This document shows, one piece after another, positions 1,893 through 19,831 of a DNA stretch of 22,206 nt; position 1 is the first letter of the stretch, and every line of letters starts with the position of its first letter. The stretch covers positions 1-22,206 of the IMG/VR virus record IMGVR_UViG_3300037517_000870, one strand, 5' to 3'. The translations under genes were made by a program, and so were the position numbers. Origin of the DNA: a virus. The notes beneath the pieces were generated by a model. That model did not search any database. It was not told the origin of the DNA and saw nothing but the letters and a program-made list of their open reading frames with translations.

Positions 1893-3095
1893 ATGGCAAA
1901 TAACATTCTTACGATTGACATGATCACGAGGAAGGCTCTCGAAATCCTCGAAAACAACCTAGTGATCACTCGAAACGTGAATCGTCAATATGACGACTCG
2001 TTCGCGCAGGAAGGCGCCAAGATTGGTACGACCCTTCGTATCCGTCTGCCGGACCGCGCGCTGGTGACCGATGGTGCTGCGCTGCAAGTGCAGGACGACA
2101 ATGAGCAGTTCACCACGCTCACCGTCTCTAGCCAGAAGCACATCGGCATCAACTTCACGACTGCTGAACTCACCATGCAGCTCGACGACTTCGCCGAGCG
2201 TGTGTTGAAGCCTCGGGTCAGTCAGTTGGCCTCCAGCATCGACGCCGATGTGGCGAACTCCTACCAAGGCATTTTTGCCTCGGTTGGCACGCCTGGCACC
2301 GTTCCGTCGACCAGCCTGGTGCTGCTCCAAGGTCAGCAGAAGCTGAACGAGGCCGCCGCGCCAATGAGCCCGCGCTACGCCACCGTTAACCCGGCTGCCA
2401 ACGCCGGTCTGGTTGAGGGCATGAAGGGCTTGTTCAACCCGGTGTCGACCATCAGCCGTCAGTTTAAGTCGGGCCTGATGGGCGAAGGCATTCTGGGTTA
2501 CGACGAGATGGCAATGTCGCAGTCGATCAAGCAGCACACGACCGGCACCCGTACTGGCGCGCACACGGTGACCTCCACCGTCAGCACGCAGGGCGCGACG
2601 ACCATCGCAATCACCGGCACCGGCACGCAGACCATCAAAAAAGGTGACGTGTTCACCGTTGCGAACGTCTATGCGGTCAATCCGCAAACCCGTGAGTCGA
2701 CTGGTGCTCTTCAGCAGTTCGTAGCGACCGCCGATGCTGTTGCGGTGGCGGGTGCGTACACGGTCAGCGTCAGCCCGGCGATCTACACCTCCGGTCAGGC
2801 TCTGGCAACCGTGGACTCGTTCCCGCAGGCAACTGCAACTGTCACCTTCTTGGGCAGCGCCAGCACCCAGTACCCGCAGAACCTGCTCTATCACAAAGAC
2901 GCAATCGCGTTTGCAACCGCTGACCTTGTGATGCCGCAGGGCGTGGACATGGCGAGCCGCCAAGTTCACAACGGGATCTCCATGCGGATCGTGCGCCAGT
3001 ACGACATCAACAACGACAGGATGCCCTGCCGTATTGACGTCCTCTACGGCTACTCGGTCATTCGTCCGCAACTCGCTTGCCGTATGTGGGGTTAA
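1893..3095 (+). CDS. Major capsid protein, P22 coat protein family
   Basis: 400 residues, against 430 for P22 gp5. The start is well set by AAGGAG 7 nt before ATG 1893. The N-terminus (MANNILTIDMITRKALEILENNL) and the following RIRLPDRALVTDGA segment fit the P22-type coat family, which has the HK97 fold. Residues ~220-320 form a Thr/Ala/Gly-rich beta insertion (GDVFTVANVYAVNPQT, ATVTFLGSAS), as expected for the inserted I-domain of P22 coat. The C-terminus (RIDVLYGYSVIRPQLACRMWG) is also typical. It forms the icosahedral shell together with the scaffold encoded just upstream. This is one of the firmest assignments in the window. Confidence 0.93.
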   Translation: MANNILTIDMITRKALEILENNLVITRNVNRQYDDSFAQEGAKIGTTLRIRLPDRALVTDGAALQVQDDNEQFTTLTVSSQKHIGINFTTAELTMQLDDFAERVLKPRVSQLASSIDADVANSYQGIFASVGTPGTVPSTSLVLLQGQQKLNEAAAPMSPRYATVNPAANAGLVEGMKGLFNPVSTISRQFKSGLMGEGILGYDEMAMSQSIKQHTTGTRTGAHTVTSTVSTQGATTIAITGTGTQTIKKGDVFTVANVYAVNPQTRESTGALQQFVATADAVAVAGAYTVSVSPAIYTSGQALATVDSFPQATATVTFLGSASTQYPQNLLYHKDAIAFATADLVMPQGVDMASRQVHNGISMRIVRQYDINNDRMPCRIDVLYGYSVIRPQLACRMWG

Positions 3096-5240: not shown

Positions 5241-5449
5241 AACAATTTCTGCTCAAGCCTGACGGCACCTTCCCGCCCAACACCAACGTCGAAGCGTTGA
5301 AAGCCGCTGGCATTCGCTTTGTGCTGCCTACGCCGCGCCCTCGTCCGTCGCCCGGCATGACGCTGCGCGATACTGAGCCTGAACTGATCAATGGTGTCTG
5401 GCACCAGCGGTGGACTGAGGTGCCGGCGCCCGAGGAGCCTACGGAATGA
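5237..5449 (+). CDS. Small phage protein next to adhesin (70 aa)
   Basis: 70 residues. ATG 5237 overlaps the adhesin stop (ATGA) and its own stop overlaps the next ATG in the same way. The sequence (MKQFLLKPDGTFPPNTNVEAL ... WHQRWTEVPAPEEPTE) is Pro-rich and soluble, with conserved-looking Trp residues near the end. The layout recalls short proteins encoded beside phage fibres that have a '...GVWHQ.W.E...' C-terminus. I do not know its function; an assembly helper for the adjacent fibre is a guess based only on position. Confidence 0.7.
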   Translation: MKQFLLKPDGTFPPNTNVEALKAAGIRFVLPTPRPRPSPGMTLRDTEPELINGVWHQRWTEVPAPEEPTE

Positions 5450-6186
5450 CCATCCTCACGCTATCCGGCGCCGGCGTCTCGGCAGGCGACCTGATCAACG
5501 GGGCGCTGCGCCTCATCGGTCAGTTGGCCGAAGGTGAGACGCCTTCGCCTGAGACATCGGACGACGCCTTCACGGCGATGAACCAAATGATCGACTCTTG
5601 GTCGACCGAACGTCTGTCGGTGTTCTCGACGCAGGATCAAGTCTTTACTTGGCCCGCCAACACAATCAGCCGATCGCTTGGGCCGACTGGTGACTTCGTT
5701 GGGCAGCGCCCCATCCTGCTTGATGACAGCACCTACTTCAAGGACACCAGCAGTGGTCTGTCCTACGACATCCTTTTCATCAACCAAGACCAGTACAACG
5801 GGATTGCGTTGAAGACTGCGGGGAGCACGTTCCCACAGATGATGTGGGTCAACATGACCTTCCCCAACGTCGAGATGTACCTGTACCCGCGTCCGACGAA
5901 GGATCTGGAATTTCATCTGGTGTCGGTGCAGCCGCTCACGCAGGCTGCGTCGCTTAACACTATCCTTCAGTTCCCGCCAGGCTACCTGCGGGCGTTCCGG
6001 TACTGCCTCGCGTGCGAGCTCGCGCCTGAGTTTGGTGTTGAGCCGCCGCCCACCGTGCAGCGGATTGCGATGGCGTCCAAGCGCAGCCTGAAGCGCATCA
6101 ACAATCCCGACGACATCATGGCGCTGCCGTACAGCCTGATCGCGCGCCGTAGGCAGCGTTTCAACATCTTCGCAGGCGGCTACTGA
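5446..6186 (+). CDS. Tail adaptor / head completion protein, P22 gp4-like
   Basis: 246 residues (P22 gp4 is 166). ATG 5446 overlaps the previous stop. The N-terminal helical part (SAGDLINGALRLIGQLAEGE, DAFTAMNQMIDSWSTERLSVF) is typical of the gp4-like tail accessory family, which attaches under the portal after packaging and closes the head. The middle (YDILFINQDQYNGIALKTAGS, FPNVEMYLYPRP) and the C-terminal ...RSLKRINNPDDIMALPY segment are also typical. The gene directly upstream of the gp10-like hub matches P22 order, so the family call is strong. The length beyond gp4 is usual in environmental relatives. Confidence 0.88.
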   Translation: MTILTLSGAGVSAGDLINGALRLIGQLAEGETPSPETSDDAFTAMNQMIDSWSTERLSVFSTQDQVFTWPANTISRSLGPTGDFVGQRPILLDDSTYFKDTSSGLSYDILFINQDQYNGIALKTAGSTFPQMMWVNMTFPNVEMYLYPRPTKDLEFHLVSVQPLTQAASLNTILQFPPGYLRAFRYCLACELAPEFGVEPPPTVQRIAMASKRSLKRINNPDDIMALPYSLIARRRQRFNIFAGGY

Positions 6187-7697
6187 TGAAGACGCCCATT
6201 CTTGGCGCTTCTTATGTCGCGGCGAGCATCAACGCCGCAAACGACCGCTGCGTCAACCTCTATCCGGAAGTAGTGCAGCAAGGCGGCAAGGAGCCTGCTT
6301 TTTTGCGGCGCACGCCAGGGCTTAAACCTGTCGTGCAACTTACAGGCGGGCCGATCCGGGGAATGTTTGTTCTTCCGCAAAACAAATCTAACCCGCAAGT
6401 GCCGCAAAACGACGGGCTGGACTTGTTGTTGGTAGTCACGTCAGACGATGCGCTAGGCACCAACACTCGTTTTTGGCTGGTGGAATCTGACTACGGTACG
6501 ACGCTTCGAACGACCGTCAGCGCTAATTTGGGCGCTGGGCCAGTGTCGATCGCCTACAACGGCGTTCAAGTATTCTTTGCGTGTAGCGATCCATCTGGCA
6601 GCAGTTTTATCTACAACGTTGACACCAACCAATTTCAACAGATCACGGACCCTGACTTTCCCGGCGCGTCTTCGGTTGGCCTTATAGACGGATACTTTGT
6701 GTTCGCCGAGCCTAACAGCCAAAAGCTATGGGTGACCGCGCTGCTGGACGGCACGTCGGTCGACCCGCTGGACTTCGCAAGCGCTGAAGGGGCGCCTGAC
6801 AACATTGTGTCGGTGTTGGTTAGCAACCGTGAAGTGTGGGTGTTTGGCGAGACGTCAACTGAGGTCTGGTACAACGCGGGCGGGCCTGACTTCCCGCTTG
6901 AGCGCATCGCAGGCGCCTTTAACGAGATTGGCTGTGTGGCCAGGTACTCGACCACCAAAGTGTCTAACCGCGTCTTTTGGCTCGGCCGAAATGCGGAAGG
7001 CCAAGGAATTGTCTACCGGTCCAACGGCTACGTTGGCGAGCGCGTCAGCACGCATGCGATTGAAACGGCGATCCGCGCTTACGGCGACATATCAAATGCA
7101 ATTGGCATGGCGTACCAACAGGACGGGCATCCGTTCTACGTCCTGACCTTTCCGACCGTGGCTAAGACGTGGGTCTATGACCTGAGTACGCAATTGTGGC
7201 ATGAGCGTGCAGGTTGGATTGACGGCGCCTTTACGCGCTACAGGCCCAACACGATGGCGCTTTTCAACGGCAAGATCATCGCGGGCGATTTTGAGAACGG
7301 CAAACTTTACGAACTGGACCCCGACGTCTACACCGACAATCTGCTGCCGCAAAGGTGGCTGCGGTCTTGGCGGGCGCTGCCCACAGGCCAAAACAACCTC
7401 AAGCGCACGGTGCAGCACAACCTACAGCTCGACTGCGAGTCAGGCGTGGGGCTGGTAACCGGGCAAGGCTCCGACCCGCAGGTCATGCTGCGTTGGTCGG
7501 ACGACGCTGGCCACAACTGGTCAAGCGAGCACTGGCGGTCGATGGGCGCGATCGGCGCCACCGGCACGCGGGTCATCTGGCGGCGGCTGGGCAGCACGGT
7601 AAGGCTGCGCGACCGCGTCTACGAGGTGAGCGGCACCGACCCGGTCAAGATCGCGATCATGGGGGCTGAACTCACCGCGAGCGCCACCAATGCCTAA
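6186..7697 (+). CDS. Packaged DNA stabilisation protein, P22 gp10-like tail hub
   Basis: 503 residues (P22 gp10 is 472). The start overlaps the previous stop (TGATG). The N-terminus (MKTPILGASYVAASINAANDR, then VNLYPEVV and FLRRTPGL) is the signature of the phage stabilisation family. Beta-propeller-like repeats follow (PVSIAYNGVQVFFACSD, VGLIDGYFVFAEPNSQ, VWVFGETSTEVWYNAG, VFWLGRNAEGQGIVYR). In P22 this protein forms the hexameric hub between gp4 and the tail needle and holds packaged DNA in the head. Neighbouring genes match that role. It ends 8 nt inside the next gene. Confidence 0.9.
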   Translation: MKTPILGASYVAASINAANDRCVNLYPEVVQQGGKEPAFLRRTPGLKPVVQLTGGPIRGMFVLPQNKSNPQVPQNDGLDLLLVVTSDDALGTNTRFWLVESDYGTTLRTTVSANLGAGPVSIAYNGVQVFFACSDPSGSSFIYNVDTNQFQQITDPDFPGASSVGLIDGYFVFAEPNSQKLWVTALLDGTSVDPLDFASAEGAPDNIVSVLVSNREVWVFGETSTEVWYNAGGPDFPLERIAGAFNEIGCVARYSTTKVSNRVFWLGRNAEGQGIVYRSNGYVGERVSTHAIETAIRAYGDISNAIGMAYQQDGHPFYVLTFPTVAKTWVYDLSTQLWHERAGWIDGAFTRYRPNTMALFNGKIIAGDFENGKLYELDPDVYTDNLLPQRWLRSWRALPTGQNNLKRTVQHNLQLDCESGVGLVTGQGSDPQVMLRWSDDAGHNWSSEHWRSMGAIGATGTRVIWRRLGSTVRLRDRVYEVSGTDPVKIAIMGAELTASATNA

Positions 7698-17034: not shown

Positions 17035-17538
17035 TCACTTACCAAGGACGCTGAACCAGCTTTGCGGCTGCGTCGGGGCTTTGGTTCGGGGTTTAGGGGC
17101 GGCTCGACTCTCCCCGTCTTCGATTCGGTAAACCCTGTTGGCGGGAACGGCCACGGGATCGGGCTGCGGTTTGGCGCGGGACTTGCGCGGCGCAGGCGGG
17201 GCGACCTCTTTGTCGACGAGGTGCCAGAGTTTGCGCCCTCGTTCCCCGAGTTTGAATTGGACACGGTTTTCCCTCTCCAGTTTTTTGATAGCGACCTGAG
17301 CCGCGTCAGTGCTGATACAGAAGTGACGGGCAATCGTCTCATACGACTGCCAGCCCTTGCGTTCTGACATGAACTTGATCAAGCGTTCTTCGGTCATGGT
17401 TCCAACCTCATAAAGGATGACCTCCTGCGTCTTGAAGCGAGCCTTGCAAGCGAGGCAGTTTCGTACCCTGAAAGCATCCGCATTCTTGCGCCATCGTTTG
17501 AAAGCCAACGCCGCGCCGCAGTTGGGGCAAGGCGTCAT
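17035..17538 (-). CDS. NrdR-like zinc ribbon plus winged-helix protein
   Basis: 167 residues from ATG 17538; AAGGAGA lies ~8 nt upstream inside the end of the preceding gene and the start overlaps that gene's TGA. Residues 4-40 are a zinc ribbon: CPNC (4-7) and CLAC (28-31), with FRVRNCLACKARFKTQE close to the NrdR pattern RRR.C..C..RF.T.E. Residues ~49-109 look like a winged helix (MTEERLIKFMSERKGW, YETIARHFCISTDAAQVAIK, KLWHLVDKE). The C-terminal ~55 residues are Pro/Arg/Lys-rich and probably disordered. NrdR's ATP-cone is absent. I infer a DNA-binding regulator; the target is unknown. Non-regulatory zinc proteins remain possible. Confidence 0.82.
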   Translation of the reverse strand: MTPCPNCGAALAFKRWRKNADAFRVRNCLACKARFKTQEVILYEVGTMTEERLIKFMSERKGWQSYETIARHFCISTDAAQVAIKKLERENRVQFKLGERGRKLWHLVDKEVAPPAPRKSRAKPQPDPVAVPANRVYRIEDGESRAAPKPRTKAPTQPQSWFSVLGK

Positions 17539-17888
17539 CCATTCTTCTCCTTCAGTTTTGCTTCGATGGCTCGGGCGAATTGGTACGGCAGCATCCGTTC
17601 GCCTTCGACGGACCCCTGCATCACGGCGGCGATCTCCTGATCCGTCAGCCCGACCCATTCACGTTGTGCTGCGGCATACAGCATTGTTCCGATTGGCAGC
17701 GCATCAACATCTTCTTGTTGATAGTCAAGGTCGTGCTTCTCACCTACACCGTAGCAAACCCACGCAACAGGCTCCTGCTTCTCTGCCTGTTCGATGGCGG
17801 TTCGGAGGGCGGCTCTTGCTGCGTTTACCTGCTCCCACGAATAAGCATCCAACGCCTCCAGCGCTTGTTTCATTGCTTCTATGCTCAT
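17535..17888 (-). CDS. Conserved phage protein, paralogue of the gene at 18183
   Basis: 117 residues from ATG 17888, with GGAGAAAGC directly upstream; a longer frame to 17939 would overlap the upstream gene. It starts MSIEAMKQALEALDAYSWEQ, has LRTAIEQAEKQEPVAW in the middle, and ends REWVGLTDQEI ... YQFARAIEAKLKEKN. This 'MKQALEAL / AIEQAE..EPVAW / LTD.EI / FARAIEAKLKEKN' layout is frequent in small early genes of environmental phages; function unknown. The 3' end encoding LKEKN doubles as the SD of the next gene. It is a clear duplicate of the gene two positions upstream. Confidence 0.82.
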   Translation of the reverse strand: MSIEAMKQALEALDAYSWEQVNAARAALRTAIEQAEKQEPVAWVCYGVGEKHDLDYQQEDVDALPIGTMLYAAAQREWVGLTDQEIAAVMQGSVEGERMLPYQFARAIEAKLKEKNG

Positions 17889-18881: not shown

Positions 18882-19148
18882 TCAATTCTCCCTACTTTTT
18901 AGCTGCTCGTATGCGTGTCTGACTCTACGAAATGCATCGGCTTCAAGTTGGCGGACACGTTCAGCAGAAGAAACATCCAACTCGTCGGCGAGCTGCCGTA
19001 AAGTCAAAGCGTCTTTTTCGCTCAGCCATCGCGCTTCGAGAATTCGTCGCCTACGTGGCGAAAGACAATCAAGTATCTCCGGCACCTCTGCCACCATTTG
19101 CCGCAGTGCTTTCGCTATAAAGTAGTCAGCAATGTCTCGTACTCGCAC
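18882..19148 (-). CDS. Stand-alone sigma-70 family region 4 protein, RpoH-like
   Basis: 88 residues from GTG 19148, one base after the previous stop, with GGAG 6 nt upstream; a TTG at 19160 is a weaker alternative. Residues ~28-78 match sigma region 4: CLSPRRRRILEARWLSEKDA (4.1), then TLRQLADELDVSSAERVRQL and EADAFRRVRHA (4.2 helix-turn-helix). The segments ARWL.E, TL.ELAD and SAERVRQLE are those of RpoH (sigma-32). Compared with RpoH there is one extra residue (Ser60 or Ser61) in the helix-helix turn. Regions 1-3 are absent, so it cannot melt promoters alone. Likely binds -35-type DNA and/or the RNA polymerase beta-flap. The alphaCTD protein is encoded one gene upstream. Confidence 0.86.
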   Translation of the reverse strand: MRVRDIADYFIAKALRQMVAEVPEILDCLSPRRRRILEARWLSEKDALTLRQLADELDVSSAERVRQLEADAFRRVRHAYEQLKSREN

Positions 19149-19149
19149 G

Positions 19150-19383
19150 TCAGTCTCCAATCATCCGACCGATATTCGTCGGGTAGCCGATCAACGCTTT
19201 GATCTCAGGCGGGATCTTTGGCAAGGGGTGCCAGCCGATCCACCATTGATCTTTGCCGTCAAACCAACCGACCCCGGCTATACCACCCTTATTCAGCAGC
19301 AGGACTTTGGGACCGGCGGGGCAGGTGTCCATCGACCTCCAGAAGAGGTCTCCATCCGTTTCAGCCTCCTTGTTTGTCGTCAT
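19150..19383 (-). CDS. Small Trp-rich phage protein (77 aa)
   Basis: 77 residues from ATG 19383; GGGAGA lies ~8 nt upstream within the 3' end of the alphaCTD gene, which it overlaps by 23 nt. The core (FWRSMDTCPAGPKVLLLN, KGGIAGVGWFDGKDQWWIGW, HPLPKIPPEIKALIG) resembles small phage proteins of the DUF551-like 'W..MdtaP..G..vll ... W.PLP' type. Function unknown. It sits between the alphaCTD and sigma-region-4 genes; a functional link is possible but not shown. The overlap implies coupled translation. Confidence 0.75.
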   Translation of the reverse strand: MTTNKEAETDGDLFWRSMDTCPAGPKVLLLNKGGIAGVGWFDGKDQWWIGWHPLPKIPPEIKALIGYPTNIGRMIGD

Positions 19384-19831
19384 TCGGTTCGTCTCCCTTC
19401 AGGAACAAGCCACGCGACCGCAGCACCTCACGGATCTCATTCAAGGACTTCTTACCCATACCCGGGGCTCGGATGAGGTCCATTGCACGACGCTCACACA
19501 GCTGCTCGATGGTGTAGATACTCTCGGCGCGGAGGATGTTCTGTGCCCGCACGGTGAGATCGAGCTCGGTGAGAGGTGTGCCGTTCTTGGATTCTTCTTG
19601 TGCCTTTTTGTCTTGCTCTCTACGCCGTTCCAGCTCTTGAGCACGGTTCTCTTCTAACTTATCGAGTTCTTCCATGTGGTCGAGGATTTCCCGTCTTCTA
19701 TTCATCATCGCTCCCGCAACAGCGTATGCGCTGTTCGCCACTTGTTCTGCAGTAAGCATGTTCTTCTGGGGTGCGAGTGCTGCTGCCACACGTATCGCAA
19801 TCTCGTCCCACAGCTCCATTTCATTTGTCAT
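19361..19831 (-). CDS. RNA polymerase alphaCTD-like protein with coiled-coil N-terminus
   Basis: 156 residues from ATG 19831, with GGAG 7 nt upstream; it overlaps the previous gene by 11 nt. Residues 1-43 are helical, 44-83 strongly charged and likely coiled coil (DHMEELDKLEENRAQELERR). Residues 86-146 match the RNA polymerase alpha C-terminal domain: LTELDLTVRAQNILRAESIY, then APGMGKKSLNEIREVLRSRG. Against E. coli RpoA as I recall it, about half of ~59 positions agree. DNA-contact residues R265, N268, G296, K298, S299 and E302 are present as R95, N98, G126, K128, S129 and E132. Acidic D259 and E261, which face sigma region 4, are E89 and D91. The alpha N-terminal domain is missing, so it cannot replace alpha in the enzyme. 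Likely role: modifying host promoter recognition. Confidence 0.88.
   Translation of the reverse strand: MTNEMELWDEIAIRVAAALAPQKNMLTAEQVANSAYAVAGAMMNRRREILDHMEELDKLEENRAQELERRREQDKKAQEESKNGTPLTELDLTVRAQNILRAESIYTIEQLCERRAMDLIRAPGMGKKSLNEIREVLRSRGLFLKGDEPNDDKQGG

Follow-up and report, generated by a model that had tools for sequence, protein, structure and literature searches.

A phage-encoded RNA polymerase alpha C-terminal domain and a nearby sigma region 4 protein as a candidate polymerase-free reader of -35/UP promoter DNA

What might a phage do with the C-terminal domain of the RNA polymerase alpha subunit (alphaCTD) when it is encoded as a protein of its own? The question is raised by the linear IMG/VR record IMGVR_UViG_3300037517_000870, whose 22,206 bases make up the whole stretch analysed here (the window). 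A sequence-only reading had placed an alphaCTD gene at 19361-19831; this position was exact, and the strand is minus.

Identity and genomic setting of the alphaCTD protein

The features considered first are:

1893..3095, plus strand: P22-type coat protein, 80% identical to its homologue in MW202483
20810..22099, minus strand: SNF2-type helicase, upstream in the run of the alphaCTD gene, 59% identical to its MW202483 homologue
19361..19831, minus strand: alphaCTD protein of 156 aa, ATG at 19831 with a GGAG Shine-Dalgarno
19589..19750, minus strand: long charged helix (residues 28-81) replacing the alpha N-terminal domain (NTD), from the AF2 model and composition
19418..19609, minus strand: RNA_pol_A_CTD domain (PF03118, Pfam), residues 75-138

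The P22-type coat protein identifies the contig as a podovirus. MW202483 is a podovirus from Manatee Spring, and the window virus is of a freshwater type. The alphaCTD gene belongs to a minus-strand run of small, tightly packed genes that has the helicase at its start and heads towards the genes for lysis and structure on the plus strand. Because it sits inside this packed run of a podovirus with a P22 coat, we rejected host contamination as its source. At the end of the run, a 207-aa ORF (17035-17658, minus strand) gives weak zinc-ribbon and helix-turn-helix matches and perhaps encodes another regulator. None of 42 related podovirus contigs, many of which are fragments, carries an alphaCTD gene, and three of them have a sigma region 4 (sigma4), two above the cut-off; the corresponding slot of the two nearest phages, MW202483 and OR003940, was read and the alphaCTD is absent in both. 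The alphaCTD gene, and with it the alphaCTD and sigma4 pair of the window, is therefore accessory. An annotated 'DNA-directed RNA polymerase' in OR003940 (phage DSL-LC05, L011; 10522-10614) is actually a 30-aa CxxC peptide, and the annotation is probably wrong.

The RpoA C-terminal signature noticed from the sequence was recovered by Pfam in the 156-aa protein with E=1.2e-15 and 57.4 bits, the cut-off being 23.8; a longer GTG-started form of the ORF is possible, but lacks a Shine-Dalgarno. The top phmmer match in the PDB is RNA polymerase alpha (8.7e-14), and the PDB sequence matches at E < 0.01 are exclusively RNA polymerase alpha chains. With the RpoA of gamma- and beta-proteobacteria the domain shares 50-56% identity. 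The UP-element contacts, R265, N268, G296, K298, S299 and E302 in E. coli, correspond to R95, N98, G126, K128, S129 and E132, so that all six are identical, as had been claimed. The sigma-facing residues D259 and E261 are also acidic here (E89 and D91), in agreement with the earlier alignment, and D258 is replaced by T88. The 287 determinant for activator contact is altered (T285R, E286A, V287M).

An ordinary helix-hairpin-helix DNA-binding protein that acts in replication or repair, scoring as an alphaCTD by chance, is a very improbable explanation. It would draw on the alphaCTD being itself of helix-hairpin-helix type, on the helicase gene nearby and on a weak match to the generic family HHH_5; that match, however, reaches 19.4 bits, under its cut-off of 27, and the alphaCTD model is ahead by 38 bits. 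The identity with proteobacterial RpoA and the complete set of RpoA DNA contacts likewise argue against such a protein. The profile comparison with the generic family, which had been put forward as a check, thus came out for RpoA, and so did structure prediction. The AF2 model, built on an alignment of 26 viral proteins, has a mean pLDDT of 90.8 and about 95-98 over the alphaCTD, and shows a helix at residues 4-24, a second helix at 28-81 and the alphaCTD fold at 94-139. Its superposition with the alphaCTD of E. coli gives about 0.6 A, and many solved alphaCTD structures match in Foldseek at rmsd 0.3-0.9 A, including 3n97, titled as alphaCTD and sigma region 4 on UP/-35 DNA. The C-terminus of the window protein is a true alphaCTD of RNA polymerase in which the surface for DNA contact is kept, and on its residues the protein is predicted to be a likely DNA binder.

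The alpha NTD, said to be missing, was indeed not found by any Pfam NTD family in the 156-aa protein, which also misses the NCBIfam RpoA equivalog cut-offs (at least 228 bits) with a best score of 66 bits. In its place the sequence-only reading saw a charged coiled coil. The long charged helix stands, with 62% charged residues between 44 and 82, but the coiled coil is not established: the heptads are weak (in the best stretch of 28 residues, no more than 5 of the 8 a/d positions are hydrophobic), and a charged single helix is equally plausible. The N-terminal 84 residues gave no match in phage records, and close relatives over the whole length were found neither among viral nor among genome contigs.

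AlphaCTDs in other phages

That no phage protein of this layout had been described was too strong a statement. UniProt/BFVD contains phage proteins with the name 'RNA polymerase alpha subunit C-terminal', including A0A6J5MNY7, A0A6J5M7I6 and A0A6J5NZM6 from uncultured Caudovirales phages, A0A2P1JY10 from Rhodococcus phage Finch and A0A5Q2WLP1 from Mycobacterium phage Mithril, and the first of these aligns across almost the whole window protein. In the first 50 kb of phage Finch no gene is named as alphaCTD. The cultured Bacillus phage vB_BmeM-Goe8 (MN043729, Herelleviridae) encodes an alphaCTD protein, c00050, of 210 aa (78 bits) in which all six contacts are present, with R at position 298:

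1959-2591, with a copy at 156106-156738: Goe8 alphaCTD gene (L336), in the terminal direct repeat

This repeat is identical for at least 7,436 bases, and in SPO1 the terminal redundancy is where the host-takeover module is located (PMC6873191). We found neither a functional study of a phage-encoded alphaCTD in the open-access literature nor a description of sigma4-alphaCTD fusions. Phage alphaCTDs thus exist as database names already, and their function is apparently unstudied.

Alignment-guided scans of IMG/VR, to which we added the window and a single faecal phage record, brought the number of viral loci encoding an alphaCTD protein to 122, a few contigs being counted twice. Charged helices are among the partner parts, which vary and also include excisionase-like or XRE-like HTH domains, DUF3310 and GNAT acetyltransferase. 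No recognisable full-length RpoA occurs at the 122 loci, where no ORF fits our RpoA-NTD motif, and the RpoA NTD was not seen among the long ORFs tested in Pfam. Most tblastn matches labelled 'phage' or 'plasmid' were host rpoA, judged by full-length ORFs, ribosomal-operon neighbours or annotation, and were discarded. Records such as MT837602 and AFYI01000003 in INPHARED and NZ_CP033217 in PLSDB carry host rpoA, some with the ribosomal operon, and represent contamination or mis-typed chromosome pieces. The acetyltransferase is joined to the alphaCTD in two IMG/VR loci (L061, at 5452-6348, and L062), which recalls phage Rac, a GNAT-like protein that acts on the alpha subunit (PMC7552054). Matches to alphaCTD beyond RpoA were seen in 6/76 bacterial genomes, all of one order; one genome (G092) has two ORFs of fusion length and another (G154) three extra alphaCTD ORFs, and these extra proteins presumably belong to prophages.

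Among 89 non-redundant viral alphaCTDs, the position of R265 is the least variable of all (entropy 0.09 bits), and all six contacts are kept in 49 when K or R is accepted at 298. Of 100,000 sets of six positions drawn at random outside the core, none was as conserved, although this test takes no account of relatedness. In the same alphaCTDs the 287 determinant varies freely, and the combination suggests selection on DNA contact. The window alphaCTD shares 33 identical residues with Comamonas and 22-23 with Firmicutes; that of L065 shares 44 with Lachnospiraceae against 23-25 with Proteobacteria, and that of L067 43 with Bacteroidota against at most 27 with others. This tracking of bacterial phyla makes repeated capture probable and suggests that phages took the domain several times, presumably from their hosts.

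The sigma region 4 gene and the sigma4-alphaCTD fusions

Two genes downstream of the alphaCTD gene lies a sigma region 4 gene, which, like the fusions described below, had no place in the earlier account of the alphaCTD gene:

19150..19383, minus strand: 77-aa ORF between the alphaCTD and sigma4 genes, overlapping the end of the former
18882..19148, minus strand: sigma-70 region 4 protein of 88 aa, GTG start preceded by GGAG, with an alternative form of 92 aa from TTG at 19160
18915..19073, minus strand: Sigma70_r4 domain match (Pfam), residues 30-82 of the 92-aa form

The two genes are separate, on the same strand and 201 bp apart; the 77-aa ORF between them gave no Pfam family above cut-off. 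The sigma4 protein matches PF04545 with 47.4 bits (cut-off 24.1), its alignment spans regions 4.1 and 4.2, and sigma regions 2 and 3 are missing from its 88-92 aa. It is of the sigma-32 (RpoH) type, with 54 bits for the NCBIfam sigma-32 model as compared to 36 for RpoD. In the helix that reads the -35 element E585, R588 and Q589 are retained and R584 is changed to S. Furthermore K593 has become D, and together with the D258 to T change in the alphaCTD this makes a direct contact of the E. coli kind between the two window proteins uncertain, as judged from their residues.

Separate sigma4 genes occur above cut-off in about 4/47 phages with a standalone alphaCTD, fusions excluded, and in 2-3/42 relatives of the window phage. 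These frequencies are similar, showing no enrichment, and the adjacency in the window alone could thus be chance. It is the fusions elsewhere, together with proximity, that argue for a functional link. At 41 of the 122 loci a single polypeptide combines a sigma region 4 with the alphaCTD, sigma4 being N-terminal in every case and the linker 19-69 aa long; at 80%, 27 of these proteins are non-redundant. Among the fusions tested in Pfam, ten have both domains above the cut-off; sigma4 was under it in L059 and L083 and unseen in L015, and the weakest calls (e.g. the L053 HTH-alphaCTD protein and L078) were made with our own sigma4 model as their only support. The fused sigma4 domains mostly retain the -35 readers R584, E585, R588 and Q589 (20-24 of 26). 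Several fusions have a third DNA-binding domain ahead of the other two, being excisionase-like HTH_17 in L030 and L067 and HTH_3 in L118. A second split arrangement resembling the window is found in L053, where a sigma4 gene and a pair of alphaCTD paralogues, one of which begins with a short HTH-like part, are consecutive at 5308-6880; this sigma4 gene scores 48 bits and lies 92 bp from an alphaCTD gene.

The free alphaCTD could also be a pure competitor that coats UP elements or diverts activators and other alphaCTD-binding factors, thereby lowering strong host promoters such as those of rRNA, with the sigma4 neighbour unrelated; we regard this as unlikely, though worth weighing. Without the alpha NTD the protein could not enter core polymerase in the usual way, its DNA surface is retained and the Goe8 homologue sits in a terminal repeat, all of which would fit a competitor. 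Other phages disable the same contact: T4 Alt and ModA modify R265 (PMC2988021) and phage G1 gp67 disrupts the alphaCTD-UP contact (PMC4495994), which makes this interface a known target of phages. The changed 287 determinant, however, speaks against titration of activators, and the number of sigma4 fusions suggests that the two domains belong together. The isolated alphaCTD is a weak DNA binder, and a monomeric competitor would therefore need high expression.

In another reading, to which we likewise give a low probability, the helix grips RNA polymerase or another protein of the phage, and the resulting complex is fixed upstream of phage promoters through the alphaCTD, comparable to the RinA/ArpU late regulators and, for sigma4, to T4 gp33. 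Such an activator or tether would be in line with the diverse N-terminal partners, with the weak similarity of the window sigma4 to the PHROG families phrog_36 (phage transcriptional regulator) and phrog_248 (activator), and with the fusion of L059, which directly precedes the genes for the terminase large subunit and the portal, and that of L065, shortly before terminase. The fusions of L112 and L076 lie, on the other hand, in replication or early regions, the window gene belongs to the helicase-led run, and the analysis defined no paired -35/UP site at a phage promoter.

Taken together, the sigma4 neighbour and the fusion family favour a two-part module reading -35 and UP DNA rather than a lone decoy. 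Domain identity, contacts, predicted fold, neighbourhood and fusions are what the data show; that the protein binds DNA, that it cooperates with the window sigma4 protein and that transcription is affected are what we infer. In the reading that we prefer, and to which we give an even chance, the alphaCTD protein is a polymerase-free reader of UP/-35 DNA which, paired with its sigma4 partner, biases the host RNA polymerase. The alphaCTD would have been taken from a proteobacterial rpoA and mounted on a phage-specific helical carrier, and its R265-type surface would bind AT-rich, UP-like DNA with the protein outside RNA polymerase. Together with the sigma4 protein encoded downstream it would form, or line up on DNA as, a pair reading -35 plus UP. 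Occupied -35/UP sites, possibly with the beta-flap engaged through sigma4, would then shift the start sites used by the host RNA polymerase and so belong to the changeover from host to phage transcription.

The fusion of the same two domains in many phages points to a widespread interference with host gene expression. It is tempting to generalise, with somewhat less confidence than in the window itself, that phages repeatedly took sigma region 4 and alphaCTD and used them polymerase-free, split or fused, as a -35/UP-reading factor that redirects or blocks host transcription; the window would be a split example of sigma-32 type, which might aim at heat-shock-type promoters. If this is true, the module represents a new class of takeover factor, in which the host's own promoter-recognition pieces are reused without the enzyme, and a natural two-headed -35/UP binder is on offer. 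It would become directly testable whether promoters respond to alphaCTD and sigma4 when core polymerase is absent, and Goe8, being a cultured carrier, makes experiments feasible and would be a good experimental model.

Comparison with known systems

The window protein shares with the C-terminal domain of bacterial RpoA the domain itself, the fold, the six UP contacts and the acidic residues at 259 and 261, and differs from RpoA in having no alpha NTD, in its changed 287 determinant and in being a separate charged-helix protein. Weak matches in the alphaCTD region to the hypothetical proteins of NCBIfam PRK07758 (95 aa) and to BREX PglW concern cellular models, with scores far under their cut-offs. 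T4 Alt and ModA and G1 gp67 target the promoter-upstream interface too, but are enzymes or inhibitors and not copies of the domain. The product of 18882-19148 resembles T4 gp33 and minimal sigma region-4-like co-activators, which are sigma4-like without regions 2 and 3 (PMC7824862); for these, however, an alphaCTD partner is not reported.

The named phage proteins and Goe8 c00050 bear an alphaCTD like the window protein and are mostly far shorter than RpoA, but the named proteins are only 22-44% identical to it where aligned. The IMG/VR fusions (L065, L067, L076, L079, L086, L103 and others) have the same two domains and a helical segment preceding the alphaCTD. They differ in being one polypeptide, mostly with an alphaCTD of Firmicutes or Bacteroidota type and a sigma-A-like region 4, whereas the window has two genes and is of the proteobacterial type.
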